Made by a program: the position numbers and the translations under genes
Part shown: positions 6,402 to 57,009 of the stretch, piece by piece
How the letters are laid out: the number at the start of each line of letters is the position of its first letter
Position numbering within the stretch: the first letter of the stretch is position 1
The notes under the pieces: model-generated
Database searches by the model: none
The model's input: the letters and a program-made list of their open reading frames with translations, nothing else
Told to the model about the DNA's origin: nothing
Assembly: GCF_005239225.2 (NCBI RefSeq)
Contig: NC_133300.1
Coordinates: 12,181,875 to 12,245,874, forward strand
DNA: 64,000 nucleotides
DNA from: Populus alba
Lineage: Eukaryota > Streptophyta > Magnoliopsida > Malpighiales > Salicaceae
Direction: 5' to 3'

Positions 6402-6955
6402 AAGAAATAGACACAAAAGCATTTATGTTAGGACATACCAAGCATATCAACAAGTAAATTATCACAAGAAAAAACAAGTTGAATGGCATGAATCTTATAG
6501 CTCGGACATGTTACAAGTCTAATTATATCACATTGTTACAAAATCATAATCTTTTCAAGAGAAATCATTTTAATCATGACATTAAAGCAAAATTAATTTA
6601 TTCCAATAATTTAAACATAATTTAATTTAAAGCAAATAATGCAAGTTAGTTAATTATTGAAATAAGGTGTTAATTAATATAAAAACAAATTATGAGTTTT
6701 ATTTAAATAATAATAATTAAAAAATATTTATTCATAAAACAAAAAAATTAAATTTTTAGATTAAAATATATATAATAATCTACACTGAAAATAATTGATA
6801 AGATTTACAATATGTTCTATTTTATCTAACGTCTAACAGACACGAAACAAAATCGATACACATTAAATACAAAATATGGAGTCCGGCCCATGTCTAATTC
6901 AGTCCAGTAATATTAACTACCTCCTTAACCATCTAACTAAAAGAATCTAACATCA

Positions 6956-6961
6956 CACGTG
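6956..6961 (+). promoter_or_regulatory. G-box/ABRE-like element upstream of BPA1-like gene 1
   Basis: CACGTG within ACACGTGGTG, about 150 bp upstream of the putative leader exon end. The same element is kept in copy 2 at 16380-16385. G-boxes bind bZIP and bHLH factors; ACACGTGG is the usual ABA-response core. The position is suggestive only; no transcription start was mapped. Confidence 0.4.
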
Positions 6962-7775
6962 GTGTTGGTGGCGCGTGGGGGTAACAGCTTGATTATAACT
7001 CTGTCGGTTTGCACTTATTAGCTACTTCTAGACGTTAGTTACTCTGTCACCTCAACCTCTTTCTCTGCGCTTAATTCCTCTCTCCCTGGTTAACTAGCTA
7101 TTCATCTCAGGTATGCAGACCTAATCCAATATTTTTATTTTCATTTTTTTGATAATCACTTGATTCTTTCTGATTACACATAAATTTCGAGTTCATTATT
7201 TTTTAATGTTTTCTGATGAATCAATGAATTGTTGTCTTCTTTTTGTATTACAAATAATCCCCCAAGTATCAAGAAATGCATGTTGATCAATTCTTTTCAT
7301 GGGTTATTTCCACTTATTATATAGCCTGGTAATATGGGCGTTTCTTTAGCTTGGAAATATGTTTTGAAGATTTGAAGAGCTTTGAAGATTATGCATGACT
7401 GTAGACTAATCTATTCTAGAAATTCATGTTAACAGTCCAAGGAAGAGCATCTAATGATTTTTTGTTGTACTATGAGGGGGATGTGAGGGAGGGACCGCTG
7501 GAGGTTATGGACCTTAGGATTGCAAGATATGGCTAGGCTGAGTGGAAATGATAATGCATATTGTCTTATTCTGACATTTTTCTTATCTTAACTATCCTTT
7601 TAAAACATCCTTTTCTGTGTATATAATTGCATTATCTCTATCAGGTGTTGAAGGGAGCAATGATGATTTCTAGAAACAAAAATTGGCCGTGTTAGAATAT
7701 GCTGCTAAGATTTTATATATATACCTCCTTAATCAGGTCAACTTATATCTAGCTTGCACATTGTAAAACTTCACC

Positions 7776-10700
7776 ATGTATCCTGGTGGTTACACTGCTG
7801 AGGTTACAAGCTTATCTCCTAAAGCAGAAGAGAAGGATGTGTACGAATTTTTTTCTCACTGTGGTGCTATTGAGCATGTTGAAATCATCAGGTAATATGC
7901 GTCTGCAAATTATGAATTTACTCCTAAGATCAATTTCCATCCGAGTATATTTACAAATCATCAGTATATTTATGCCATTATATACTTGAAAAACTGATTA
8001 GTGAATGCTTCTTTTGTAAAAGGTCAAAAAATGAAATGCATATGTTTTACCCTTTCAATTATGTGGGAATCAGTGCTTTTGATAGATAGATTCATATTAT
8101 TAATTTATGACATGTTTGGAGTCTAACTCCATCCCTAAAATAATTGCAATTCTTTTGCTGGAGGATTCCAATAATTGTCCTTTCCATTGAACCAAGATTG
8201 GTATGTTTAAAGACCTCTAATGCAGTCTCTGAAACTGAATTGCTTCTTGAATAAAAATTGAAATTAAGGTTTGAATTCCTCATGTGTTTCTCATAAAAGC
8301 TTTTCCATTATTCATTATTCATTCCTCTGCATTTCTTTATTTATTCGGTATTGTCAATTTCCATTATTTGGTAATCGTTGCATTTCTTTATTCATCTGAT
8401 AAACTAGGAATGTATTTTCCCATGCTTTTTCTCACAAAATGAGGTTGAACATTACTATCTACAATCATTTAGGGTATTCTTAGTTGCTCACTTATTTTTC
8501 TATATCTAAGTATAAAATATTATGGAAAAGAGGCATTTGATGAGATGTCAACATTATGTTCTGGTAACAATTAGAAATAACAGGAACTTGCACATATCAA
8601 GAGATGAGTCAAAGGGTGTTGATAGGCTAGTGTTGAATGATATCCCTCTGTTTCTTGGATTGTTTTTCTCTTGCCTGGCAGCTTTTGGTTCTGGAGCCTC
8701 CATTATGTTTGCACAATCAAATCACACACATCTATTCATTGTTATTTTCCATGGTCATAAACTGTATTTGACTCGAGTAATGCTTATTCTGAAAACAGAT
8801 CCGGCGAATATGCTTGTACCGCATACGTAACATTTAAAGATGCCTACGGTCTTCAAACTGCTATCCTGCTCAGTGCAAGTTTCTGCTCTCACTTCTGCCA
8901 AGAAAAATAGTTACTTGATATAGTTGGGAAAAAAAAAAGTTTGTGAACCATTTTGTTTAAGCTACCCTCATAGCTATTTTCCTCACCAAGTTACTTTCTT
9001 AGACTTCAAGATAGAAAATTCAACTTTCCTCTGCTATTATTGTGATAAAGAATTTTTTTTTTTTTTTTTCCAATGGATATGACGACAATGTCACTCTACC
9101 CATGTCTGAACTCTGAATAAGTTGGAAGTTTTGACCCCAAATAAGTTATCTCAATATCTTAATATTTGGATTTGAACAACCAGCTCAAAGATCGCCTGAC
9201 ATAAGTTGGAAGTTCACAGTTCTGCTTCAAAGTATGACCTTATGTGGAATCATAAATCTGAATGACCATTCAACTAGAAGTTCATCATTACCTCTTAAGA
9301 AAACATTTTTGGATTGCCTGTATATTTGAATCACTTAAAACTGTTTATAATTCTCTTTTAATTGGTGTTTATGAGATCATCATTAGGATTTCAGCTAATG
9401 ATTTCACATGCTTACTGATGGCAAATTGCTCGTTAGTTTTCCTTTTCTGAGAAAAATTCATTTTGAAGGCTACCTTTTAGCTACAGATTAAACTTGAATG
9501 AAAAATTCATTTTGAAGGCTACCTTTTAGCTACAGATTAAACTTGAATGAATTTCTTTTGTTTTGTATTGTATCGAACTTCAGCTTTCAGCTGAATGATC
9601 CAATAGCCATCATGAAACACCTACTTGGTTCTTTGGTCCTGCTATCTGACATTTTCTTAGTGGTTAATAGATTTATTTTTCTCTAATTTTATGTTTTAGG
9701 GAGCCACCATTGTAGATCAACGTGTTTGCATAACACACTGGGGAACTTTTGTGGATGAATTTGATGCTTGGGGCAGTTCATCAAAGGATGAAGGGAACAC
9801 CAGCTCAGCGGTAATATCTTTACTTGTGGTAGCATGCCGAGTGCTCTTTTTACTGTCCCATTTATCTTGTATATAAGTTTACAAATTCTTAATCTCATCG
9901 GTTTAAGTTGAGTATGGCAAAATTTATCTAATCTCAAAATTTGAAATATTTCTTCAAAAACTCAATAAGAGGTAAAGGATAGCCGTTTCCTCTTGCAACC
10001 TATTGGACAGAAAATCAAAAGTACAGTAGTATGTTTTGGATGTATCAACACTCGATACATCCAGAGTTCAACAAGCATGTTTTGGTCAATGTCCAGTTAA
10101 AACATACCTGCAAGATACTAAGCAACCCGACCAGGTGATTTTAAAAAACACTTGATGTTTATCATACTAGTGGAGGGGTTGAAGTGCATCTCAATGATGC
10201 AACCAAGCCAAATCACATCTTTATATGGGTAATGATACCCTGTGTCTAAGAAGTCATAAATTGGGTGCGTAGTTTTGGAATTGGATGCCACCATGCTGTA
10301 CAGCTTGTGCTCTTCCTTGGATGCACTGTCTATTATTTTTAACACTGATTGTGAACATTGCACCCTGCATAATAATTGTTCATAGCAAGTGAAATGACAC
10401 GGTACCTAATAGCTTTCTATTAGTCTACCTTCCCTTTTGAACCAACTCTTGTACATTCTTGGCAGGGAATTCCCTTCGACCAGTTTGTTTCTACCCCTGG
10501 AGAAGCAGTAACTGTTGCTCAGGAAGTTGTTAAAACAATGTTATCCAAGGGATACATTTTGGGAAAAGATGCAATGGTCAAGGCCAAAGCTTTTGACGAA
10601 TCTCATCAAGTCTTAGCTACCGCAGCTGCCAAGGTGTCGGAGCTAAGCAATAGAATTGGGCTCACTGACAAGATTTATGCAGGAATGGAAACTGTGAAAG

Positions 10701-10924
10701 GCGTGGATGAGAAGTACCATGTTTCAGAATTCACCAAATCGGCTGCATCAGTTACTGGTACAGCAGCTGTTTCTGCAGCAACTTTTACCGGGAAAACAGC
10801 TGTAGCAGCAGCTAATGCTGTAGTCAACAGCACCTACTTTGCTAAGGGAGCTCTTTGGGTTTCAGGTGTCTTGACACAGGCAGCCGAAGCTGCAGCTGAT
10901 TTGGGCAAGAAAGCTAGCACTTGA
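7776..10924 (+). CDS. BPA1-like RRM protein (copy 1), spliced CDS of 253 aa
   Basis: Four coding exons: 7776-7891, 8799-8874, 9700-9810, 10466-10924 (762 nt, 253 aa); phases join correctly. A non-coding leader exon probably ends at 7110 (CTCAG/GTATGC). The ATG at 7776 gives MYPGGYTAEVTSLSPKAEEK, the usual start of this subfamily. Residues ~3-79 form an RRM-type fold ending in ATIVDQRVCITHWG; the rest is helical and Ala-rich (SKGYILGKDAMVKAKAFDES, then FAKGALWVSGVLTQAAEAA). Family knowledge: BPA1 binds ACD11, a sphingolipid-transfer-type regulator of cell death, and relatives (At4g17720, At5g46870 type) are implicated in defence and ROS control; canonical RNA-binding residues are poorly conserved. 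Intron 2 of the coding region uses a GC donor (AGT/GCAAGT), the only choice that keeps LLSGATIV in frame. A tandem paralogue lies at 17197-20109. Confidence 0.92.
10037..10063. other. Perfect intronic hairpin, copy 1
   Basis: TGGATGTATC, 7-nt loop AACACTC, GATACATCCA: a perfect 10-bp inverted repeat in the last intron of the BPA1-like gene. It is retained without change in copy 2 (19254-19280). Confidence 0.7.
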
Positions 10925-11018
10925 GTGAAGTTTTTCTTTCAAACAACAGTAAAGGTCTTTTACTTTTGTTATTGTATAAAAATAAATATTAGTCCTTTTA
11001 GATGCAGCTACTCTTACA

Positions 11019-11166
11019 CAGATTAGCTTCTAATGCCTTAATGAATAGCGGCTACTATGCTAAGGGAGCACTTTGTGTTTTTGGCCTTTTGACATGCGAA
11101 ACTTATAAGTTGTTTTTTAGCTACTGGAGTTCAATGCCAAGGATTGTGCACAGTTTTGGACTTTAG
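11019..11166 (+). pseudogene. Relic or alternative terminal exon downstream of BPA1-like gene 1
   Basis: About 100 bp after the stop codon, a frame reads ASNALMNSGYYAKGALCVFG LLT, closely resembling the end of the gene's own last exon (ANAVVNSTYFAKGALWVSGV LT). It is preceded by TTACACAG, a plausible acceptor, and stays open to a TAG at about 11164-11166. It looks like a degenerate duplicate of the last exon; use as an alternative 3' exon is possible but unproven. Confidence 0.55.
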
Positions 11167-11559
11167 GCTCAAGATACATCTTATGGATCATTGATGTTTA
11201 TACCTGACATTTTCAGCTGTCGGTTTTTTTATTTTGTTATGGTGGTTGATATCACAATTCTTCAACTGCATGATTTAGACGGGCTGCTGTTGATACATCT
11301 TATTCACTGAAAGTCTTTACATGCATTGCAACTTTCTTAGAGGTTGTTTCTTTGGTAAATGGAAACTAAGCGGTAGGATGCAGATTGATTCTGTTGGATT
11401 CTTATGGTTGGCAGCCATGTGACGTTGCATTTTACAGCTTGCAGGTTCTGAATACAGTTCCTTGACAAATAAATTGTCAAATCTCTTGAATAATTGACCT
11501 TCGTTGCTATATGCTTGGAGTTGCGTTTGTTTATAGTGATCATAAGCTGGGCAGTCACT

Positions 11560-12070
11560 ATTCCTGATGTGTTGGATAGTTTGTGTGATGATGCAATCTG
11601 GTTCCTTTCCGAGGACCACAAAGCTGAACCATCATTTATGCTGGTCGGTCAGCAAAAGTTTTGAGCATTCGACGCCCAGGACTGGTCTTGCAAGGCAAAG
11701 TATACCGGAAAATAAGTTCCTCTATACTTGGCTTCTTGACGTTTGTGAATTATAATGCCTACTTTTCTAGTCTTTGGTCACGCGTTTTCTTGTCTGCGAG
11801 CCACTTGATGATATCGTTCTTTACCCTACGAAAATGCAGACCCACTGTCTCTCTTTAGTCCCCACAGCCTAATAGCTCCCTTAATCCGCCAAAAATTGTG
11901 CCTCAAGAAGCAACCTTTATCTTCTACCATCCATCATTAATGCCTCGTTTTGCGAAACTTGCCCAAAAAAAGCATGAATCATCTTCCAAAATGCCACCTG
12001 TAAAATACTTTCTGTAATTAAGCCATACATTTTGCATCACAGTAACCACTTTCCGAACCCAATAATTGAG
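11560..12070 (+). other. Conserved block downstream of BPA1-like gene 1, function unknown
   Basis: GC content rises and the sequence is well conserved with 20795-21380 in copy 2. Reading frames include CDDAIWFLSEDHKAEPSFML, which looks protein-like, but stops follow. It may be a decayed exon of another gene or part of a long 3' transcript. No family was recognised. Confidence 0.3.
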
Positions 12071-12930
12071 TGATTATTGATAGAGAAATCTTACGCAAGG
12101 GCCCTTGTTTCTCACAACAAGACAAGCAGAACCATGGCCAGTTAATATATGGATCAGTGGGATTATAGAGCCTTGTTCAAAACGTTTAAACACATCGTGC
12201 ATTTGTTGCCTTTAGCCTCAGCTTGATTGGAATTGTTTTGAGGAACAGTTATGGCACAGGTAGCTGATAAAAAGTAGTTTGTTCTCTACTTGTGTTTCTT
12301 TTGCTCACTGATTGCCCTTTGCCTGTGACCGGCCAAACTGAAGTCAACTTGATTAGACAGAGCTGTGTCATGTAGCCAGTGTTGTGATTTTGTGGTTGGA
12401 CTGTAAAGGATACTTGTGAACTTGGATTCAGCGACAGGATTTGAAATGAGACGATGAGCAGGTATAGAAGGCTGTTTGGATCCCTTCGGCTGGTTTATTC
12501 ATGTGGTCTTCTTTTTTTTTTAATGAAATCTCCATTCTTTAATTTGGCATTGCATGAATATAATTATAATACACCGGAGGAGTTTGAAAGTGTGATAAAG
12601 ATTGTTTTTTAAAGTGTTTTTCAGAGATATATTCAAAATAAATATTTTTATTTTTTTAAAATTATATTTAATATAAAAATATCTAAAAACATAAAAAAAA
12701 TTAATTTTAAATAAAAAAATTTGCAAACTTTAACCAACCACTTTTAGAACACAATACAATACTAAACAGGAAATTAGTAACTCATGGGATCTGTCGCCAG
12801 AGGCGATGCTCCGAGTTGCCGACCTCCACAAATGATTTGGGAAGAATTTTGGAATAGAATCTTTCATGTCATGAGTCCATTTCTATTTCAATTTTTTATG
12901 GTCTCCGCAGCTTGGATAATCAGGTCACCT

Positions 12931-16055: not shown

Positions 16056-16379
16056 ATTATTCTATTTAGTTTCTAAATTTTTTATTACCAACATAACTTT
16101 TTTTTTTTTGGTCATAACATATTGACTCTATTACACTATTAATTTTTATTACTAATTTAACATTGATTCATAATTACAACACTGTAAAGCATACTTATAT
16201 CATAAATATGCGGGAGCGCATAGCATAGATGTTCAATTTTATAATGTCTAACAGCCACAAAAAAAAAAAAAAAAAATCAATGCACGTTAAATATAAAATA
16301 TGGAGTCCGGCCCATGTCTAATTCAGTCCAGAAATATTAACTACCTCATTAACCATTTAACTAAAACTATCTAACATCA

Positions 16380-16385
16380 CACGTG
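16380..16385 (+). promoter_or_regulatory. G-box/ABRE-like element upstream of BPA1-like gene 2
   Basis: CACGTG in ACACGTGGTG, the counterpart of 6956-6961. Conservation may simply reflect recent duplication. Confidence 0.4.
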
Positions 16386-17196
16386 GTGTTGATGGCGCGT
16401 GGGGGTAACATTTTGATTATAGCTCTGTCGGTTGGCACTTAGCAACTTCTAGACGTTAGTTACTCGGTTAGCTCTACCTCTTTCCCTGCACTTAATTTCT
16501 CTCTCGCTGGTAACTAGCTAATCATCTCAGGTATGCAAACCTAATCCAATGTTTTTATTTTCATTTCTTTGATAATCACTTGATTCTTTCTGATTACACA
16601 TAAATTTCGAGTTCATTATTTTTTTAATGTTTTCTGATGAATTAATGAATTGTTGTCTTCTTTTTGTGATTACAAATAATCCCCCAAGTATCAAGAAATG
16701 CATGTTGATCAATTCTTTTCATGGGTTATTTCCACTTATTATATAGCCTGGTAATATGGGCGTTTCTTTAGCTTGGAAATATGTTTTGAAGATTTGAAGA
16801 GCTTGAAGATTATGCATGACTGTAGACTAATCTATTCTAGAAATTCATGTTAACAGTCCAAGGAAGAGCATCTAATGATTTTTTGTTGTACTATGAGGGG
16901 GATGTGAGGGAGGGACCGCTGGAGGTTATGGACCTTAGGATTGCAAGATATGGCTAGGCTGAGTGGAAATGATAATGCATATTGTCTTATTCTGACATTT
17001 TTCTTATCTTAATTATCCTTTTAAAACATGCCTTTTCTGTGTATATAATTGCATTATCTCTATCAGTTGTTGAAGGGAGCAATGATGATTTCTAGAAACA
17101 AAATTGGCCGTGTTAGAATATGCTGCTAATATTTTATATATATACCTCCTCAATCAGGTCAACTTATATATAGCTTGCACATTGTAAAACTTCACC

Positions 17197-20109
17197 ATGT
17201 GTCCTGGTGGTTACACTGCTGAGGTTACAAGCTTATCTCCTAAAGCAGAAGAGAAGGACGTGTACGAATTTTTTTCTCACTGTGGTGCTATTGAGCATGT
17301 TGAAATCATCAGGTAATATGCGTCCACTGAGCTTCTTGCTTGCAAATTATGAATTTACTCCTAAGAGCAATTTCCATCAGAGTATATTTACAAATCATCA
17401 GTATATTTATGCCATTATATACTTGAAAAACTGATTAGTGAATGCTTCTTTTGTAAAAGGTCAAAAAATGAAATGCATATGTTTTACCATTTCAATTATG
17501 GGGAATCAGTGGTTTAGATAGATAGATTGATAGTATTAATTTATGACGTGTTTGGAGTCTAACTCCATCCCTAAAATAATTGCAATTCTTTTGCTAGAGG
17601 ATTCCAATAATTGTCCTTTCCATTGAACCAAGATTGGTATGTTTAAAGACCTCTAATGCAGTCTCTGAAATTGAATTGCTTCCTGAACAAAAATTGAAAT
17701 TAAGGTTTGAATTCCTCAGGTGTTTCTCATAAAAGCTTTTCCATTATTCAGTATTCATTCCTCTGCATTTCTTTATTTATTCGGTATTGTCCATTTCCAT
17801 TATTTGGTAATCGTTCCTCTGCATTTCTTTATTCATCTGATAAACTAGGAATGTATATGAGGTTGAACATTACCATCTACAATCATTAAGTGTATTCTTA
17901 GTTGCTCACTTATTTTTCTATATTTAAGTATAAAATATTATGGAAAAGAGGCATTTGATGAGATGTCAACATTATGTTCTGGTAACAATTATAAATAACA
18001 GGAACTTGCACATATCAAGAGATGAGTCAAAGGGTGTTGATAGGCCAGATGTCAACATTATGTTTGCACAATCAAATCACACACATCTATTCATTTTTAT
18101 TTTTCCATGGTCATAAACTGTATTTGACTCGAGGAATGCTTACTCTGAAAACAGATCTGGTGAATATGCTTGTACTGCATATGTAACATTTAAAGATGCC
18201 TACGGTCTTCGAACTGCTATCCTGCTCAGTGCAAGTTTCTGCTCTCACTTCTGGCAATAAAAATATTTACTTGATATAGTTGGGAAAAAAAAAAAAAAAA
18301 TTTGTGAGCCGTTTTGTTGAAGCTACCCTCATAGCTATTTTCCTCATCAAGTTACTTTCTAAGACTTCAAGATGGAAAATTCAACTTTCCTCTGCTATTA
18401 TTGTGATAAAGATTTTTTTTTCAATGGATATGATGACAATGTCACTCTACCCATGTCTGAACTCTGAATAAGTTGGAAGTTCACAGTTCTGCTTCAAAGT
18501 ATGACCTTATGTGGAATCATAAATCTGAATGACCATTCAACTAGAAGTTCATCATTACCTCTTAAGAAAACATTTTTGGATTGCCTGTATATTTGAATCA
18601 CTTAAAACTGTTTATAATTCTCTTTTAATTGGTGTTTATGAGATCATCATTAGGATTTCAGCTAATGATTTCACATGCTTACTGATGGCAAATTGCTCGT
18701 TAGTTTTCCTTTTCTGAGAAAAATTCATTTTGAAGGCTACCTTTTAGCTACAGATTAAACTTGAATGAATTTCTTTTGTTTTGTATTGTATCGAACTTCA
18801 GCTTTCGGCTGAATGATCCAATAGCCATCATGAACACCTACTTGGTTCTTTGGTCCTGCTATCTGACATTTTCTTAGTGGTTAATAGATTTATTTTTCTC
18901 TAATTTTATGTTTTAGGGAGCCACCATTGTAGATCAACGTGTTTGCATAACACACTGGGGAACTTTTGTGGATGAATTTGATGCTTGGGGCAGTTCATCA
19001 AAGGATGAAGGGAACACCAGCTCAGCGGTAATATCTTTACTTGTGGTAGCATGCCGAGTGCTCTTTTTACTGTCCCATTTATCTTGTATATAAGTTTACA
19101 AATTCTTAATCTCATCGGTTTAAGTTGAGTATGGAAAAATTTATCTAATCTCAAAATTTGAAATATTTCTTCAAAAACTCAATAAGAGGTAAAGGATAGC
19201 CGTTTCCTCTTGCAACCTATTGGACAGAAAATCAAAAGTACAGTAGTATGTTTTGGATGTATCAACACTCGATACATCCAGAGTTCAACAAGCATGTTTT
19301 GGTCACTGTCCAGTTAAAACAGACCTGCAAGTTGCTAAGACAATACGATTGATACTAATTGCCAAGATAAGCTACCCGACTGGGTGATTTGATAAAACAC
19401 TTGATATTTATCATACAAGTGAAGGGGTTGAAGTGCATCTCAATGATGCAACCAAGCCAAATCACATCTTTATATGGGTAATGATACCCTGTGTCTAAGA
19501 AGTCCTAAATTGGGTGCGTAGTTTTGGAATTGGATGCCACCATGCTGTACAGAGCTTGTGCTCTTCCTTGGATGCACTATCTATTATTTTTAACACTGAT
19601 TGTGAACATTGCACCCTGCTTAATAATTGTTCATACCAAGTGAAATGACACGGTACCTAATAGCTTTCTATTAGTCTACCTTCCCTTTTGAACCAACACT
19701 TCTACATTCTTGGCAGGGAATTCCCTTCGACCAGTTTGTTTCTACCCCTGGAGAAGCAGTAACTGTTGCTCAGGAAGTTGTAAAAACAATGTTATCCAAG
19801 GGATACATTTTGGGAAAAGATGCAATGGTCAAGGCCAAAGCTTTTGATGAATCTCATCAAGTCTTTGCTACCGCAGCTGCCAAGGTGTCTGAGCTAAGCA
19901 ATAGAATTGGGCTCGCTGACAAGATTTTTGCAGGAATGGAAACTGTGAAAGGCGTGGATGAGAAGTACCATGTTTCAGAATTCACCAAATCAGCTGCTAA
20001 TGCTGTAGTCAACAGCCCCTACTTTGCTAAGGGAGCTCTTTGGGTTTCAGGTGTTTTGACACAGGCAGCCGAAGCTGCAGGTGATTTGGGCAAGAAGGCT
20101 AGCACATGA
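17197..20109 (+). CDS. BPA1-like RRM protein (copy 2), spliced CDS of 231 aa
   Basis: Four coding exons: 17197-17312, 18155-18230, 18917-19027, 19717-20109 (696 nt, 231 aa). The same splice sites as copy 1 are intact, including the GC donor at 18231 (AGT/GCAAGT). Changes in the RRM part are few: Tyr2 becomes Cys (MCPGGYTAEV) and a Gln becomes Arg in the AYGLRTAILL segment. The last exon has lost 22 codons in frame, the stretch between KSAA and NAVVNS that in copy 1 reads SVTGTAAVSAATFTGKTAVA plus flanking alanines, so the C-terminal Ala/Thr-rich helix is shorter. No stop or frameshift is present, so it may be functional; the role is presumably that of copy 1 (ACD11-partner family). The 5' leader and promoter are also duplicated, but ~2.7 kb of satellite sits just upstream. 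Confidence 0.88.
19254..19280. other. Perfect intronic hairpin, copy 2
   Basis: Same 10-bp stem and 7-nt loop as 10037-10063, unchanged. Confidence 0.7.
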
Positions 20110-20209
20110 GTGAAGTTTTTCTTTCAAACAGCAGCAAGGGTCTTTTACTTCTGTTCTTGTATAAAAATAAATTTTAGTCCTTTTAAATGCAGCTACTCGT
20201 ACACAGATT

Positions 20210-20372
20210 AGCTTCTAGTGCTTTAATGAATAGCAGCTACTATGCTAAGGGAGCACTTTGTGTTTTTGGCCTATTGACATGTGAAGCTTAAAAGTTGTTT
20301 TTTAGCTACTATGCTAAGGGAGCACTATGTGTTTTTGGCCTTTTGACATGTGAAGCTTAAAGGTTGTATTTT
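20210..20372 (+). pseudogene. Relic terminal exon downstream of copy 2, itself tandemly duplicated
   Basis: Counterpart of 11019-11166. Here the relic reads ASSALMNSSYYAKGALCVFG LLTCEA then stop, and a ~70-bp part (TAGCTACTATGCTAAGGGAG...) is repeated immediately downstream (about 20236-20305 and 20306-20372). Copy 1 has only one such unit. Confidence 0.55.
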
Positions 20373-20794
20373 AGCTACTGGAGTTCAATGCCCAGGATTG
20401 TGCGCAGTTTTGGACTTTAGGCTCAAGATACATCTTATGGATCATTGATGTTTATACCTAACATTTTCAGCTGTCGGTTTTTTTTTTTTAATTATTTTTA
20501 TTATGGTGGTTGATATCACAATTCTTCAACTGCATGGTTTAGTTGGGCTGCTGTTGATACATCTTATTCACTGAAAGTCTTTACATGTGTAAATGGAAAC
20601 TAAGCGGTAGGATGCAGATTGATTCTCTTGGATTTTTATGGTTGGCAGCCATGTGACGGTTCATTTTACAGCTTGCAGGTTCTGAATATAGTTCCTGGAC
20701 AAACAAATTGTCAAATCTCTTGAATAATTGACCTTCGTTGCTATACGCTTGGAGTTGCGTTTATGTGTAGTGATCATAAGCTGGGCAGTCACTA

Positions 20795-21400
20795 TTCCTG
20801 ATGTTTTGGATAGTTTGTGTGATGATGCAGTCTGGTTCCTTTCCGAGGACCGCAAAGCTGAACCATCATTTATGCTGGTCGGTCAGCAAAAGTTTTGAGC
20901 ATTCGACGCCCAGAACTGGTCTTGCAAGGCAAAGTATACCGGAAAATAAGTTTATCTATACAATTGACTGCCAAGTGTTTCAACATCAGTTCTTTGTATT
21001 GCCACCGTCGTATGAGCACATCGGAGGAGGGTTGGCTACTTGGCTTCTTGACGTTTGTGAATTATAATGCCTACTTTTCTAGTCTTTGGTCACGCGTTTT
21101 CTTGTCTGCGAGCCACTTGATGATATCGTTCTTTACCCTACGAAAATGCAGACCCACTATGTCTCTCTTCAGTCCTCACAGCCTAATAGCTCCTTTAATC
21201 CGCCGAAAATTGTGCCTCAAGAAGCAACCCTTGTCTTCTACCATCCATCATTAGTGCCTCGTTTTGCGAAACTTGCCCTAAGAAAGCATGAATCATCTTC
21301 CAAAATGCCACCTGTAAAATACTTTCTGTAATTAAGCTATACATTTTGCATCACATTAACCACTTTCCGAACCCAATAATTGAGTGATTATGGACAGAGA
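20795..21400 (+). other. Conserved block downstream of BPA1-like gene 2, function unknown
   Basis: Matches 11560-12070 but keeps an ~80-bp segment missing in copy 1. Frames contain protein-like pieces (SEDRKAEPSFMLVGQQKF; FVLPPSYEHIGGGLATWLLD; VFYHPSLVPRFAKLALRKHE) broken by stops and frame changes, consistent with a decayed exon. Not identified. Confidence 0.3.
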
Positions 21401-22100
21401 AATCTTACGCAAGGGCCCTTGTTTCTCACAATAAGACAAGCACAACCATGGCCAATTAATATATGGATCAGTGGGATTATAGAGCCTTGTTCAAAACATT
21501 TCAACACAGTGCATTTGTTGCCATTAGCCTCAGCTAGATGGAATTGTTATGGCACAGGTAGCTGATAAAAAGTAGTTTGTTCTCTACTTGTGTTTCTTTT
21601 GCTCGCTAATCGCGCTTTGCTTGTGACCAACCAAACTGAAGTCAACTTGATTAGACAGAGCTGTGTCATGTAGCCATTGTTGTGATTTTGTGGCTGGACT
21701 GTAAAGGATACTTGTGAACTTGGATTCAGCGACAGGATTTGAAATGAGATGATGAGCAGGTATACAAGGCTGTTTGGATCCCTTCGGCTAATTTATGTTG
21801 TTCTATTCACGTGTTTTTTTATGAAATCTCAGCTCTTTAATTTGGCATTGCATGAATATAATCATAATACATATCTTAGAATATAAAAAAATATAATAAA
21901 AAAAAAATCCAAACTTTACCAACCTAACGCATATACAAAACAGAGGCTTAATAACTTATGGGATCTGGCGCCGCAGGCTATATGCATCTAGTGGCCGACC
22001 TCCACAAATTATGTGGGAAAAATTTTAGAATAGAATCTTTGATTTCATGAGTCAATTTCTGTTTCCATTTTTTATGGTCTCTGGATAATCAGTTGCTTCC

Positions 22101-49188: not shown

Positions 49189-49404
49189 ATCAATGTGTCT
49201 AGAGCTATTGCCATCTAGCACAATGATTCTACCTTGTGCTAGAGGTGGCGTAGAGCAAAGGAAGCCTATCATGCTATAGCAAACCCATCGGTAGCCTTTG
49301 TTGCCACTGTTAAGGTGGCTATTGGTGGTGAGCAGTGTGCTCACTATTAGAACACTTTGTCAAATTATGATTGCATCAATGTCATTTCATCCAACCAAAA
49401 TGCT

Positions 49405-50309
49405 TGAGTGCTACTGTCCACCAAGTTCACTAAATCAATAGTTGGTCACTACACCAATAATTAATTACCAAATGAATAGTTTTGAATTTTAGCCTATAAA
49501 AGGAGGCATTTCCATTCATTTAGGCATCTTGTTTTTTAGATTAAGATCATGTTCTTGCTCTCTCTTTTTATATTTTTGTAATGCTTAAGTTTTGCTTTCA
49601 TTAATCTTTTGTTCATGCTTTTCATTTCCTTTACTATACTTAGTTAACTTATATCATGTTTATGTTCTTATATTATTTATTTATGTTTTTCTTCTTCATA
49701 ATGTCTACCTAAGTTAATTATGTCAAGGTGAAAAGGTTTCTCTAATGGTGTTAGGATAAATAAACAATTTGCTATTAACATGTCTTATCATTTTTATCTT
49801 ATTAATTCTTAATACCTTGCTTGTTAAATGGTTAATCTAGATTTGTGTTATATAACACTTGGTACATCAAATACTTGATCCTTCATAGTCTTCGACCGAC
49901 ATCGTTGTTATGAGAGGAACTTGATTTGTTGTCAACATAAGTTAGTATCATGAATACTTGATAAAATTTATAAGTATGGTGTTACATAAATAAGATGATT
50001 AATATGATCATGTTGATAATTTATAAAGAGTTTATACGTTACTTATCTCTAATACTATTAGTGGATCCTCTAACCTTGACATTTATTTTTATCATTGTTT
50101 AATCTTCACACTTATCTTACATCTCAAAGTCCTCTTTAACTCATCATCAACACCACCACCACCATCATCATTGTTGTTGTTGTTGTTGTTCTTCTTCTTC
50201 TTATTATTATTTATAATTTATATAGTTCACCTCCATGTGGTTCGACCCCGGTCTTGCTGGGTTATTTATTGCTTTGGCACTCCTGCACTTGGGATAAGAC
50301 ATCAACTCT
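49405..50309 (+). repeat. Inverted-repeat arm, left (partner 55337-56305)
   Basis: About 0.9 kb running from GAGTGCTACTGTCCACCAAG through a TATA box (CCTATAAAAGGAGGCATTT, about 49494) to CACTTGGGATAAGACATCA. The same sequence occurs on the opposite strand at 55337-56305. A compound trinucleotide tract (CAC/CAT/TTG/TTC/TTA) near 50146-50210 corresponds to an (AAT)n tract in the partner. Promoter-like start and TG...CA-like ends would fit an LTR-type or other retroelement end; the family is not identified. Confidence 0.75.
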
Positions 50310-50397
50310 TTGATCGTGTCAGGAGGTGCTGCTAAAATTTTCTAAAAATAAGATATAATGATAATGTTATTACCTTTTTTATACTTAATTTATTTAT

Positions 50398-50612
50398 ATG
50401 ATGAAGAAAAGGTCATCAGAGAGTAATACGGACATGAGTGTTGTTGGTTCTTCTAATAGCGCTTCTGATGACCATGACCAAACACCTCAGGCACAAACAT
50501 CCTTTCTCCATGCAGGCTCATCGAGTACAAAGTCGACTCATAAAAAGGGTGTTCATTCTAAGAAAGATGTATACACCATAGTTATTACACTTGGTCTGGA
50601 GGTTGATCCAAC
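50398..50612 (+). pseudogene. Possible N-terminal piece of the En/Spm-type relic
   Basis: Open, polar, Ser-rich frame (MMKKRSSESNTDMSVVGSSN ... STKSTHKKGVHSKKDVYTI) that runs into the following MITE-like element. Ser/Thr-rich starts are common in plant Ptta/En/Spm proteins, and the relic resumes at 53541 after two later insertions. The link is an inference from position. Confidence 0.35.
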
Positions 50613-50614
50613 CA

Positions 50615-51608
50615 AGGGGTCGGGTCCTAGGTTTCATGAGTCAACCCGGATCAACTCGAGTCCACCCGGAAAAAAATTAAAAAATATATATATATAATAT
50701 TTCATATGAAAAAATCCATGTAAATATAGGTTACACATATTGTAAACAATGAAGTTTAAAAGAATATTTTAAAAAAGTTTTTTATCCCACATTAAAAAAA
50801 TATTATGTTAAGCTTTTAAGTTGAAGAATTTAAACAAAAAAAGTTTTTTATCCCACATTGAAAAACATAATTTCTTTCATGGCAGCATCGAGTATATATC
50901 CGAAAGGGCTTCAAATCCCACATTAAAAAGATATTATGTTATCCTTTTAAGTTGAAGTATTTAAACCAAAATGTTTTTTATTCCACATTGAAAATACATG
51001 ATTTTTTTTTTCTTGGGAACATAGTATATATACTAATGGGTTTTAAATTCCACATTTAGAAAACATAACTTTTTTCATTGGAATATATAGTATATATATG
51101 AAAGGGCTTCAAATCCCACATTGAAAAGATATTATATTATCCTTTTACGTTGAAGTATTTAAATCAAAAGGTTTTTTTATCCCACATTGAAAAAACATGA
51201 TTGTTTTCTTGGGAACATAGAGTATATATACTAATGGGTTTCAAATCCCACATTGAAAAAACATAATTTTTTTCATGGAAACATAGAATATATATACGAA
51301 AGGGCTTCAAATCTCACATTGAAAAGATATTATGTTATCATTTTAAGTTGTAGTATTTAAACCAAAAGGTTTTTTATCCCACATTGAAAAAACATAATTT
51401 TTTTCTTGGGAGCATAGAGTATATATACGAAAGGTGTTATCTTTTTAAGTTGAAGTATTTAAATCAAAAGGATTTTTATCCCACATTGAAAAAATATGAC
51501 TTTTTTCATAGGAACATAGAGTATATATACTAATGAGTTTCAAATCCCTCATTTGAAAAACAAACAAACGAACAAGTCTCGTCCGGGTTCACCTGGGTCA
51601 TGGGTCTA
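50615..51608. mobile_element. MITE-like element with CCCGG-rich ends and an internal phased array
   Basis: Left end CATGAGTCAACCCGGATCAA and right end, read in reverse complement, GACCCATGACCCAGGTGAACCCGG, are imperfect inverted repeats rich in ACCCGG. The interior is a tandem array described separately. No protein is encoded. Target duplication was not clear. Confidence 0.55.
50784..51554 (+). promoter_or_regulatory. 66-bp-phased array of snRNA-USE-like motifs, seven with TATA at fixed distance
   Basis: ATCCCACATTG or a close variant begins at 50784, 50850, 50915, 50980, 51047, 51113, 51179, 51245, 51311, 51376, 51478 and 51544: spacing 65-67 bp except one gap of 102 bp. The plant U-snRNA upstream sequence element is RTCCCACATCG, so the common form here differs at one base. 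Copies at 50850, 50980, 51047, 51179, 51245, 51376 and 51478 are followed after 32-34 bp by TATATATA-type boxes (starting 50893, 51025, 51091, 51223, 51289, 51420, 51522). That gap matches the Pol II-type spacing of plant snRNA promoters rather than the shorter Pol III-type spacing. No snRNA-like transcript body is evident downstream. Confidence 0.6.
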
Positions 51609-51695
51609 TTTTCCTTTCATGTACAATAAAAAAATAAACAACAATGGGTAATTCTTGAATAATTAATTTCAATGAATGAATGAAATTTCAGGTTT

Positions 51696-53545
51696 ACAAA
51701 TGTAAGACCCAAACTTTTGGCTCAACCCCAACCTATTTTAACCTAGGTATATAAGAAAAAATTGTAAGAGAATTACTTTTCTCTCTTTTAATTCTTGTAG
51801 CTGACGTGACTCTCCTATCCTCAAACCAAGAATTTCAGTTTTTGTTCTTGAGTTTTGAGTTCAATAAAGGTGGAAGTAATAAGTGAATGGTTTTCTCTCA
51901 TGTTACTTTCGATTATGGTTTGTTTGTAGAAGGATTAAAGAAGGGATTAGGGTTTATAAGGATTTGAAGTTTATGTTTTTAAGATTGATTTATGATTATT
52001 TTGGGTTTAATGATTACTTTTTTGTATGTTGTTAGAAATAAGGATTTGTGAGTTGATTAGTTTAAATTGATATTTATGGGTTAAGAAATTCATTTCAACC
52101 TTGCTAGGAAATCTATAAAAAAATGGACTTGAGATTGAAGATAATTAAATTTTATTTTGGTCCTTGATTTATGAAAAATTACAATTTAGTCCTTAAACTT
52201 TGAAAAAAAAATTATAATTTGACCCCTAAATGTATTTTGAGATTCTGGACAATTTTATTATTAGGTGAAGGATGATGAATCTCAGTTTAATAATTGATAT
52301 GGAATATTTTTAGTTTGGTCCCTCAATTTTAGAAATTTATATTTTAGTCCTTGAACTTTTAAAAAAAATTATAGTTTGGTCCCTGGTTCGTTCTGGACAG
52401 AATTTAGGATGGTTTATGGGTGAAATTTTAGTCTGGTTATTTATTTACATTTTGGTCCTCCAATTTTGGTAAAATTATGTTTTGGTTCATTTTTTGAAAA
52501 ATTATTGTTTTAGTCCCTAAACTTAGTAGACTAAACCTGGTTTTCTTTTATGCATTTGAATCTTTAAATTGTGTTGTTTTGGGTTGTTTTTTTTAGTATA
52601 TTTTATATATTTGTTATAAGTTCTTCTAACAATTCTCAATAGGATTTTCAGGTCTTTAATCTGATATTTCTTTTAGTTCTATATTTTTCAAGTGAGTGGG
52701 ATAATTTTTATTTTCTGTGTATTCATTTATTCTTGAATTTGCACTCACGATCTATCAAACTAAATTCTATTCGATATAATATATATTTCATTGATGATTC
52801 TGTGAATATCTATTATACCTTAAGATAGGACTTGTCAGTAACTCCATGCTAATAGAAAGTAGTTAACCTATATGCATATAGATAGTATTTTGTATACCTA
52901 GCTGGTGAGAGAAACATTAGCTTGTGGTTACTGATCCTCCCACAGTTTATCTGGTCACCTTCAAGTGGCATTTGATCTCTAACATGTATTCTACTACTTT
53001 ATGATAATATGCTTAGTATATATATTTATATTAAGATAAATCAACTTGCAAACTATTAATATCTAAAATGTATATTAAATGTTATTCTCTCACTAAGTTG
53101 TTTGAACTCATCCCTCATTCTTAACATTATTTCAGTTTTTTAGTTTCTAATAGCAGGTGGACTTTGTTGAGTGTTCCTACTTCTTCTGTTTTGGTCGATA
53201 TGCTTGACTTGTTTTGCGAGGCTTTCCTTTTAGTTTTGATTCAATATCTTAGATGCTCCATTGTTACCTTGTGTTTAATTAAGTTTGGATTTTGATAATG
53301 TAATGAGTATTATGGATTATTGTTTTTGTTTTAATTACTGATGAGAAATTTTGAACTATTATTTGGTTTTATTAGTTTTGAATAATATAATATTTCTGAA
53401 GATTATGAAATACTGTGTATTTTTAAATAACTTGTTTTTTTTTTTTATATATGTCCATTCTTAGGCTTAGTGTAGATGAGATGTCCTTTTGACACCGCTC
53501 ATGTGTTGCCGGTCATGAACCCGAGATTCGGGTCGTGACAACAAA
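51696..53545. mobile_element. Solo LTR (51701-53540) with 5-bp target duplication ACAAA
   Basis: Starts TGTAAGACCCAAAC and ends GGGTCGTGACA (TG...CA), 1840 bp, flanked on both sides by ACAAA (51696-51700 and 53541-53545). A TATA box TATATAA lies at 51748. The interior has the usual LTR sentences (TTTAGTCCTTAAACTTTG). No internal retroelement sequence or second LTR follows, so unequal recombination between LTRs is the likely history. Length is typical of Ty3/gypsy LTRs in plants. Confidence 0.85.
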
Positions 53546-54910
53546 TGTGGAGGCTACTTGCACGATAAAATTACTGATGAAATCATTGATGAAAATACCT
53601 TTGATTAAGAGGAGTCAGGTTTTCAAAAACCTTAAATGGAAACTTATGATTGATACTTGGTTCGGAAAATTTAGGGTTAGTATATACATAAATATTTTTT
53701 TTAATATTTAATTTGGTTTGTTTTTATATATATTTTCATAAACTAATTGATTTATGAAATTGATGTGTACAAAAAGTTTTTACTAGGAGGGGGCTTATAA
53801 CGATGATGCTATGAGAATGTGAGAAAATCACAACGCTATTATGAAAGATTGAATTCAAATTGTGAACCTTTTTTTAATGTTAAAATTTTATTTTCCATAA
53901 TCTTAACATAATTTTTTTTTTCTATCAGGTTCAGTTATTTCTACTACAAGGCCCATAGAAAATCAAAAAATATGTAAAAGAAAAAAGTCTTCTAGGACAA
54001 GAATAGAAGACATGGCTATGTAGAGGTGTTTTAGCATGTCTCGAAAGGTATCTAGGATGTTTATATCTAACACGTGATGTCCGAGCGTCTCTTGTGGTGG
54101 TCATAGTCTAGTGCGGTGAACTAAACTATGGAGATTCATGGTTTCATTACTACATACATCGGTGGGTCTATTTCATTTATTTTGCATGCAAAGCATATGG
54201 TAAGATTCAGTTTTACAAAATATTTTTTTTTAATAAAAATATTGTCTTATTTTTTTTTTAAACTAATAGTAGCTTCCTTTTACAGGTTACAATGCTTATG
54301 CAATATAAGATCAATGAAGCTTTTTGTTAAAACCCATATGTGAAAAGAGGATCGTCGGAAAGGGATGTAGCAGGTCGTGAATACCTAAGTTCAGAAGTTA
54401 GTGCCAGGTTGGATTTCAACATTTTTTTCTTAAGTTATTTTTTTAATTTGCTAACTTGTTTGTTCTTTCAGAAAACATATAACACTCGATTTTATGAGAG
54501 ATACAATGATGATCTTTCGACTCATCCAGAACTCGATCTGGATTTTTGGTAAGATGCTACATTGTGCAGTGAACTGGATAAAAATCAAGTTTACAGTATC
54601 TCCAATACTATAGCCAAAGATATCCGAATGGGCCGTAGTGTATCAACCATTAGTTCCTCTTAATCGAGATCAATCCATCAATATCCAACCATCTTGGCAA
54701 TTATACGAGAACAAGTTTAAGCTTAGAAGGCCTAACCTAATGTTAAGACACCCAACTTAGGTTTAAGATGGCCAATTAGAAGGATAAAATGAATGCTTTC
54801 AAGAAGTTGTTAGCAACCCGCACTGGTACATATGGTCAACCTCATCGCCCTCCTAGTTTCAGCGAAGATCAGCCTTCGCCTTCTCCAGCTTTGTTCCACT
54901 AGATAAATTG
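53546..54910 (+). pseudogene. Degenerate plant En/Spm (CACTA) Ptta-type transposon protein
   Basis: Scattered frames in order: WKLMIDTWFGKFR (about 53630), IGGSISFILHAKHM (54152-54198; family form HTGGSISFxEHxxRM), YNTRFYERYNDDLSTHPELD (about 54477), and KNQVYSISNTIAKDIRMGRS (about 54582), the typical conserved C-terminal part that continues into a Ser-rich tail. Frames are broken by stops and intron-like AT-rich stretches. Part of a dead CACTA element whose 5' part was interrupted by the solo LTR. Confidence 0.75.
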
Positions 54911-54999: not shown

Positions 55000-55335
55000 T
55001 ATGAAATACAATACTAACCGAATTACCGATGAAGTTTTAACGACCAACGGACTAAGTCTCTTAGAAAAAAATTATAGGACTTTGCCACTAACAATTACAG
55101 GTGGAATTACTGACGGACTAAGTCCCTCAGAAAGTTCTGAAGAGTTGAAAAAAATTACAAAACTTGCCACTATTAGATGTAATTCTCTAACAATTTAATT
55201 TTATCGATAATATACATATGATCACCAATGGACTTATCAATGGTTTATTCTGCTAGTAATATGCCATAATCACCGATGAATTTATCGATGAAATTAATGC
55301 CAATAATTCTTTTTTATTTGGTGACATTACCAAAA
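55000..55335 (+). mobile_element. CACTA-type subterminal repeat region
   Basis: Repeated short motifs ACCGATGAA, GACGGACTAAGTC, ATCGATGAAATTA, typical of CACTA subterminal arrays to which transposase binds. Similar motifs reappear after the right inverted arm (about 56930-57010: ATCACCGATGATATG). No terminal CACTA or TAGTG end was fixed. Confidence 0.5.
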
Positions 55336-55336
55336 G

Positions 55337-56305
55337 ATTGATGTCTTATCCCAAGTGCAAGAATGTCGAAGTAATAAATAACCCAGCAAGACTGGGGTCG
55401 AACCATAGGGAGGTTAACTATATAAATTACAAATAATAATAATAATAATAATAATAATAAGTTAAAAAAAGACTTTGAAATGTAAGATTAATGTGAGGAT
55501 TAATCAAAGATAAAAGTAATTTGTCAAGGTTAGAGGATCCACTAATAATATTGGAAAATAAGTATAATTTAAACTTTTTTTATTAATCAACTGGAAACCA
55601 TACACAAAGGAGGTTTCAATCACGGATGATTTATCCTTAATAGTTCATTCTAAATTTTTAATATATTCATATTAATTATTTTATTTTAGTAACATCATAC
55701 TTTTAAATATTGTCAGGAATTCATGATGTTAACTTATGTTAACAACAAATCAAGCTTCTTTTCATAGCACAGGTGTAGGTTATACCATACGGTTGGTTAT
55801 GAAAGTACCAAGCATTTGTTGTACCAAGTGTTATACAGCACAAATCTAGATTAACCATTTAACAAGTTAGGTATTAAAAATTAGTAAGATGAAAAGATAA
55901 GACATGTTAATAACAAACGTTCTTGGATATAAACATTAAAGTCCATGTTGAGTTTATATTATACATATTCTAACACCATTAGTGAAACCTTTTCACCTTG
56001 ACATAATAAACTTAGCTAAACATAATAAAGAAGAGAAACATAAATAAACAACATAAGAACATAAGTATAGTAAACAATATGAAAAGCATAAATAAGAGAT
56101 TAAGGAAAATATAACATAAAATAAAACTTAAACATTACAAAAATATAATGAAAAAAACAAAGAGCATGATCTTGATCTGAACAACCAAGATGCCTAAATG
56201 CATGGCAAATGCCTCCTTTTATAGGTCAGAATTTTGAACTATTGACTTGATGACTAATTGTTGAGTGGGTGGCCACATCTTAACTTGGTGACAATCCTTA
56301 TCTTC
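55337..56305 (-). repeat. Inverted-repeat arm, right (partner 49405-50309)
   Basis: TTGATGTCTTATCCCAAGTG opens it and ATGCCTCCTTTTATAGG (about 56210) is the reverse of the TATA region in the left arm. It includes (AAT)n near 55430-55460 at the position matching the trinucleotide tract of the left arm. It splits the CACTA subterminal region, so it is a later insertion. Confidence 0.75.
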
Positions 56306-57009
56306 TTGTCTGAACAAAACATCATTGATAACATCCAAATTTAAACCACTTGTACTCATGAAAGTTTTAGGAAATTGTCTCATCTATCTAGGGGGGAAAA
56401 AAAATTGAGGTCATTTGGATTTCTAAAACTCGAGATACGGGTTGAACACTGAGCAATGTCTGGGCTATAAGACAAATTCAAACTTCTCTATTGTTGCTAT
56501 AATTTAGACTTGAAAACAGCCTTTTTAAATCTTGGACTCCTATAAAAGTTTTAGGCCTATGTCTTATCTTTCCATCCATATAAAGGAGACCTAAATCCGA
56601 GATATACAGCTCCAGATATGACTCAATTACCGAACAATGTTTCAGTTTGGACTGAACCAGTATCTCTTTTCTAAGTTTGGCCCTCTCTTTATCCTTTCAA
56701 TTTCAGTATTTATACTCATCAATCAATCATTTCATTTATGTGATAAGCATGCATTTAAGATGAACATTTACCATAAATTAAAGGTATCTTGTATTATTAG
56801 ATATGTTATTATAAAAACATGTTTTAGTTAAGGAGTTATTGATACTTCAAGTGCAAAATGATAATATAAAACCTTGATAAAAATACACTTTTAAGTACTA
56901 ATCATTTGGCATGCTATTTCTATCTATAAATCTATTGATGATTATATTACTGAAGAACTTATAGAAAAAATATAAATCACCGATGATATGTTTTCTGATA
57001 ACATATTTT

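Follow-up and report, generated by a model that had tools for sequence, protein, structure and literature searches.

The window, that is, the whole stretch of 64,000 nucleotides of Populus alba DNA analysed here, lies on contig C17 of the genome and contains, at positions 50784-51562 of the + strand, a tandem array of 11 complete modules of 65-67 bp, followed by a partial twelfth (Table 1). Between 50784 and 51554, the motif search recovered 12 copies of a motif resembling the upstream sequence element (USE) of snRNA promoters, all 12 on the + strand (6 exact, 4 with one mismatch and 2 with two), and the steps from motif to motif measured 66, 65, 65, 67, 66, 66, 66, 66, 65, 102 and 66 bp. The twelve motif copies in a phase of 65-67 bp with a single 102-bp step, as described in the initial annotation, are thereby borne out. 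Its further statement that the motif lies one base from RTCCCACATCG, the plant snRNA USE consensus given in excerpts of PMC9845283, is true for the commonest module motif, the differing base being position 10. In the module alignment, a TATA-like box is located at a gap of 32-34 bp 3' of the USE-like motif in all 11 complete modules. Seven of them carry a box of the TATATA(TA) type, the number already reported, which was correct for this type but was an undercount of TATA-like boxes as a whole; the four class B modules carry TATTTAAA or AATTTAAA at the corresponding position, and module 5 has an additional TATATA at a gap of 26. Two module classes were distinguished by alignment, A (TATATATA box, with subtypes A and A') and B (TATTTAAA box), which are arranged in a higher-order repeat of approximately 198 bp with the order B-A'-A; the two consecutive trimers compared were 90% identical, and periods of 66, 131 and 198 were among those found by Tandem Repeats Finder. 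At the 102-bp step, a class A module is joined to a class B module with 29 bp deleted, one USE included.

Table 1. Features of the element copy in the window (positions in the window; gap, distance in bp between USE-like motif and TATA-like box)
Feature	Position	Strand	Details
Candidate left target-site duplication GTATACAC	50569..50576		without right partner; 8-mer single on window + strand
Left terminal inverted repeat, CATAGTTATTACACTTGG	50577..50594	+	2 mismatches against search pattern
MITE left flank: GC-rich end, then AT-rich stretch	50577..50783	+	alignment with 9 other copies
Module 1, class B	50784..50849	+	USE-like ATCCCACATTA; TATA-like AATTTAAA, gap 32
Module 2, class A	50850..50914	+	ATCCCACATTG; TATATA, gap 32
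Module 3, class B	50915..50979	+	ATCCCACATTA; TATTTAAA, gap 32
Module 4, class A'	50980..51046	+	ATTCCACATTG; TATATATA, gap 34
Module 5, class A	51047..51112	+	ATTCCACATTT; TATATATA, gap 33
Module 6, class B	51113..51178	+	ATCCCACATTG; TATTTAAA, gap 32
Module 7, class A'	51179..51244	+	ATCCCACATTG; TATATATA, gap 33
Module 8, class A	51245..51310	+	ATCCCACATTG; TATATATA, gap 33
Module 9, class B	51311..51375	+	ATCTCACATTG; TATTTAAA, gap 32
Module 10, class A plus 3' part of class B, 29-bp deletion	51376..51477	+	TATATATA, gap 33; TATTTAAA, gap 69
Module 11, class A'	51478..51543	+	ATCCCACATTG; TATATATA, gap 33; predicted start ~51552, inside partial module 12
Partial module 12, array end	51544..51562	+	USE-like ATCCCTCATTT; without TATA box
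MITE right-flank remnant (GTCTCGTCCGGGTT...)	51563..51606	+	right end approximate; without right TIR or TSD

The genome, 416 Mb in 96 contigs, was searched with a 271-bp probe from the array, which gave at least 195 matches, often several per copy, and with a left-flank probe, which gave at least 42. Copies are dispersed over at least 17 of the contigs C1-C19; among the matches listed, none lies on C8 or C15. Alignment of 10 one-directional copies, that of the window included, defined the terminal inverted repeats (TIRs) as CATAGTTATTAAACCCGG (left) and CCGGGTTTAATAACTATG (right), and with up to 3 substitutions tolerated in the search these repeats, variants included, were located at both ends of 24 of the 26 copies analysed, a set that leaves out L003 and L006/L007 (the latter two being a single copy). 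An 8-bp target-site duplication (TSD) was exact in 17 of the 26, had one mismatch in 5 and two mismatches in 1, and was without a match in 1; L014 and L023, each with one element end missing in the search, fall outside this scoring. Among the first 20 copies, 18 had both ends, with the TSD exact in 13 and bearing one mismatch in 5. The six extra copies, found with the left-flank probe at sites outside the listed array matches, all had both ends (TSD exact in 4/6, with two mismatches in one and absent in one), and all six had one-directional arrays, a form that may be favoured by this probe, its source being one-directional. The array was present in 26/26 copies with 5-25 module hits per copy, both A and B modules occurred in each of them, mostly in the order B-A'-A, and element length between the matched ends ranged from 682 to 1741 bp.

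Thus the copies are short, non-coding, dispersed and numerous, as MITEs are, and possess the 8-bp TSD and the TIRs of hAT elements; coding was examined through the open reading frame that overlaps the window copy (50389-50697), and a coding reading was rejected, as the frame has no Pfam match and its final part lies inside the MITE. In this non-autonomous family of hAT-type MITEs, the array forms the internal tandem domain. The earlier description of the element as MITE-like is confirmed by the TIRs and TSDs of the other copies, the window copy being without its right end, and the genome scan with a count of units per copy that was proposed there yields this dispersed family. By the alignment with other copies, the element begins at 50577, farther left than the start of 50784 given there, and at this position the left TIR is preserved in the window copy. 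It is because the right end of this copy is lost that no flanking inverted repeat is visible locally: within the window, the array has no significant inverted repeat on its flanks, the longest 25 of 107 candidates being AT-rich pairs at approximately 70-84%. Copies of the MITE were absent from the bacterial/archaeal, viral and plasmid sequence collections searched. As in plant hAT-type MITEs generally, the elements are short and non-coding with 8-bp TSDs, TIRs starting with CA and many dispersed copies; unlike them, this element consists mostly of a tandem promoter-like array of 5-25 module hits and includes an inverted subfamily.

Several further repeats were observed in the window. A solo-LTR-like element of 1.84 kb (51701-53540, TG...CA) with the 5-bp duplication ACAAA on both sides lies 3' of the MITE remnant at a distance of approximately 95 bp, and next to it, at 53541-54903, are decayed multi-exon-like pieces, six of which are without a Pfam match and which, we presume, recall a CACTA accessory gene. 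An inverted pair of repeats of approximately 1 kb (49329-50370 and 55288-56382, blast pieces 72-73% identical) surrounds the MITE region, each copy containing a TATAAAAGGAGGCATTT stretch, and the right copy is adjoined at 56422-56576 by an Rfam match to MIR2912 (108 bits), a family that may be transposon-derived here. Elsewhere, a direct duplication of approximately 6 kb (6812-12923 and 16229-22092) has pieces 89-93% identical, the last 75%, and contains the same open reading frame in both copies, that at 10424-10924 without a Pfam match.

In the window outside the array, 13 motif matches were obtained at up to 2 mismatches, each with exactly two, and the whole-window count of 25 compares with a mean of 19.3 in shuffles (at least 25 in 15 of 100), so that the total is not above chance. 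It is the clustering and phase of the motif, rather than its total in the window, that are non-random. Beyond the array, the window contains no site within 1 mismatch of RTCCCACATCG. On a matrix built from 22 native USEs, the module consensus scored 15.8 bits compared with 14.4-22.0 for the natives, and none of 127,980 background positions of the window scored as high, the best reaching 15.2. By this score, the module USE is comparable to the weakest native USEs.

The modules were compared with the U5, U6 and U2 loci of the same genome. A USE-like element was located at -78 to -82 in all 12 of the U5 loci examined (of 19 found; 8 exact), followed by a TATA box at a gap of 31-33 bp in 12/12; one of them, L038, carries TATATATA at gap 33, as class A modules do. 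Twenty of 21 U6 loci were examined, 11 of which score above 110 bits; within these 11, a USE at no more than 1 mismatch was present in 10 (none in L044) and the gap was 21-28 bp in 10/10, measured after the TATA pattern had been widened by eye for U6 and for L035. Of the nine weak U6 matches, L059 only (37.7 bits, below the cut-off) has a motif resembling the USE, CTCCCACATTG, in which base 10 is T. TATTTAA, a box of class B modules, is also present in four of the native U6 loci. All 18 U2 loci were examined, and a USE-like motif was found in the four best, 13 partial matches being without one, while the below-cut-off locus L078 has ATCCCACACCA; the U2 gaps were 34 in L061, 22 in L062 (USE with 3 mismatches) and 33 in L064, and L063 (C6:16341977-16342169, a gene or pseudogene) has the USE TTCCCACATTG with T at base 10 and no TATA box by the pattern used. 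Native clusters were also observed, four U6 copies at C5:3936919-3946270 and five U5 copies at C5:3492837-3538417.

In the 369 modules of 27 elements (the 26 and the window copy), the gap between USE and TATA box was 31-34 in 348 (32-33 in 301), 11 of the remainder having no exact TATA-like box and 10 having other gaps. Between the centres of USE and TATA box, the modules have a distance of 41.5-43.5 bp, equal to 3.95-4.14 turns. Excerpts of PMC9841428 describe the choice of polymerase in land plants as set by the distance between USE and TATA box. Given the gaps of native U5 and U6 loci, the spacing and TATA box of the modules are therefore of the Pol II/U5 type, which supports the assignment of the spacing to Pol II put forward in the initial annotation. 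At position 10 of the USE, the comparison with native genes that had been suggested came out divided: C is present in 25 of the 26 native loci above the cut-off that have a USE-like element (12 U5, 10 U6 and 4 U2), whereas T is present in the single exception, U2 locus L063. T is found there in 369/369 modules (compare module ATCCCACATTG with ATCCCACATCG), which is a point against a working USE. Decay of a CpG as the source of this T was considered and is not demonstrable, modules with C at this base numbering 0/369.

Arabidopsis snRNA genes are described, in excerpts of PMC545797 and PMC5079582, as having a USE, a TATA box and a 3' box, the USE being one C shorter in PMC545797. No Rfam match to a spliceosomal snRNA was obtained in the window, nor in 49500-53000 at a loose threshold. 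One 3'-box match lies within 50701-52600, at 50747 and thus upstream of module 1, while matches of this kind number 56 on one strand of the whole window and 54 on the other; no snRNA gene with a 3' box was found downstream of the array. Like the native U5 Pol II promoter, then, the modules have a USE-like 11-mer and a TATA box at nearly the same gap (31-33 compared with mostly 32-33); unlike it, they have T at base 10, are laid out in tandem and are followed by no snRNA gene.

Conservation within the module was analysed in 292 aligned modules, 19 of 311 having been left out (11 for their unclear class and 8 for their unusual length). The TATA columns deviate in 0.5, 0.1 and 0.4% of cases in A, A' and B, compared with 6.0, 4.6 and 6.3% for the other columns, and the column test, in which the columns are non-independent as the copies are related, gave p values of 0.048, 0.0008 and 0.011, respectively. 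For the USE, which is favoured by the gathering of modules on motif similarity (up to 3 substitutions), deviation was 1.8% in A, 1.4% in A' and 9.1% in B, with p values of 0.57, 0.026 and 0.80 in the column test and ranks of 18/56, 4/56 and 46/55. These values suggest that the best-kept part of the module is the TATA box in all three classes, and that the USE is kept in A and A' and decayed in B. Within the window copy, constraint on the USE was not significant (6/121 changes compared with 45/528 elsewhere, p = 0.26; binomial P = 0.10), and USE and TATA box pooled gave P = 0.005.

Tandem duplication in steps of one trimer accounts for the phasing of 65-67 bp, and arrays would lengthen and shorten through unequal exchange in B-A'-A steps. 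Eleven copies (L009-L019) contain two arrays back-to-back, pointing outward from the centre; they were selected for inverted hit pairs, so their proportion is no estimate of frequency. One junction (TATATATACTCTATG/TTTTTTATCCCACATTG) is common to all 11, and in the 6 of the 11 whose ends were inspected, the sequence immediately internal to the TIR is not the same at the two ends. Therefore, a single internal inversion probably founded this subfamily, which was amplified by transposition, one inverted version of the array presumably having itself been multiplied. FoldBack-type transposons have long inverted arms of tandem repeats, which the inverted copies resemble. Unlike in FoldBack-type elements, the inversion here is internal with a single junction (11/11), the inspected ends differ inside the TIR, and the six copies found with the left-flank probe (6/6) are not inverted.

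As judged from the sequence, the modules were probably derived from a promoter and amplified within the MITE. Our main reading, to which we assign a probability of roughly 55%, is that the array consists of 66-bp modules derived from a U5-type snRNA promoter and, if active, would act as a weak composite promoter directed outward; its descent from an snRNA promoter and its present action are the parts that we infer. Each module would descend from a Pol II (U5-type) promoter, retaining a USE-like 11-mer that a spacer of fixed length separates from a TATA box. If the array is read at all, TBP and a SNAPc-like factor would direct Pol II chiefly to the outermost module, as internal start sites would be overlaid by the USE of the next module and neighbours would exclude each other. 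The predicted start, approximately 30 bp past the TATA box, falls, in 269/301 modules, on base 8-9 of the USE that follows, and independent firing of internal modules is therefore hardly possible. Only a USE-like remnant lacking a TATA box comes after the outermost module (51544 in the window), and the same motif closes the other aligned arrays. By its predicted position, the outermost module is the least hindered, though it is not free: its own predicted start at 51552 falls in that remnant, which weakens the argument for an unhindered outermost module. Runs of at least six T occur in 288/311 modules and would be expected to end Pol III transcription early. Overlaid internal starts together with these T-runs therefore favour one outward Pol II promoter over a dozen, if the array is active. 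The whole array would then behave as a single composite promoter that directs transcription outward, into the DNA beside the insertion, rendered weak by the T at base 10 of the USE; most copies are probably silent. A more specific version, in which the terminal modules of a captured U5-type promoter would seed capped non-coding RNA in the DNA next to insertions, at both ends if inverted, and the universal T would damp the USE or mark a variant site for SNAPc, is considered unlikely, slightly more so in view of the remnant beyond the outermost module.

The most serious rival is that of an inert minisatellite, in which the 66-bp unit would resemble an snRNA promoter by accident or through old origin, tandem exchange alone would homogenise the units, and no transcriptional role would exist. 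This reading is doubtful. It draws on the amplification in trimer steps, which accounts for the phasing, on the base-10 T that is universal in modules and found in 1/26 native loci, on the unconserved USE of class B, and on the lack of significant USE constraint within the window copy. It is opposed by the module architecture: among 200,000 random 66-bp units of the window's dinucleotide composition, 96 had a USE match at no more than 1 mismatch and one of these 96 a TATA-like box at gap 31-35, so that the joint arrangement at the U5 gap arises once in 200,000 units; moreover, the gap agrees with that of U5 genes in this genome, and in each of the three classes conservation is highest in the TATA box.

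It is improbable that the repeated 11-mer is instead a site that aids recruitment of the hAT transposase or transposition. hAT transposases bind short repeated subterminal motifs, which such a role would fit, as would the location of the array inside the element in 26/26 copies. Nevertheless, the array is internal rather than confined to the element ends, the best-conserved part is the TATA box while the 11-mer decays in class B, and both TIRs with an exact TSD are found alike in L081 with 5 modules and L018 with 21. Least probable of all is that the arrays titrate SNAPc-like factors as decoys or that back-to-back copies give hairpin RNA for siRNA: the 27 copies counted contain at least 369 modules, and this number would suit it, as would the existence of inverted copies, but the non-native base 10 speaks against strong binding and the modules of inverted copies face outward, so that their own transcription would miss the hairpin.

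Use of a USE outside snRNA genes, as in this MITE, has a parallel in the interface-induced MIRNA loci of Cuscuta campestris, where a motif of 10 nt that matches the snRNA USE exactly occurs with Pol III features and the loci were tested in leaves (commentary, PMC10226582). Unlike in those loci, the array here is inside a MITE, has Pol II spacing, and is read from sequence alone. Plant telomerase RNA genes also have a USE and a TATA box, according to excerpts of PMC6765143 and PMC12133305; the excerpts of PMC7917103 and PMC8843856 hold nothing further about the motif. A larch U6 paper matched by the motif was set aside, as the motif there is a PCR primer sequence. In the titles and abstract openings of the open-licence literature, among the matches listed, no report of snRNA-promoter arrays in a transposon was found.

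If the composite promoter is active, promoters of the snRNA type, which normally belong to a small set of genes, would be spread by transposition to new places, and array length would constitute a natural dosage series. Even if the array is inert, the family illustrates the multiplication of a promoter-like module by transposition and tandem exchange, with its spacing and TATA box preserved, and the hundreds of natural module variants are a resource on which bases of the USE are needed by SNAPc.
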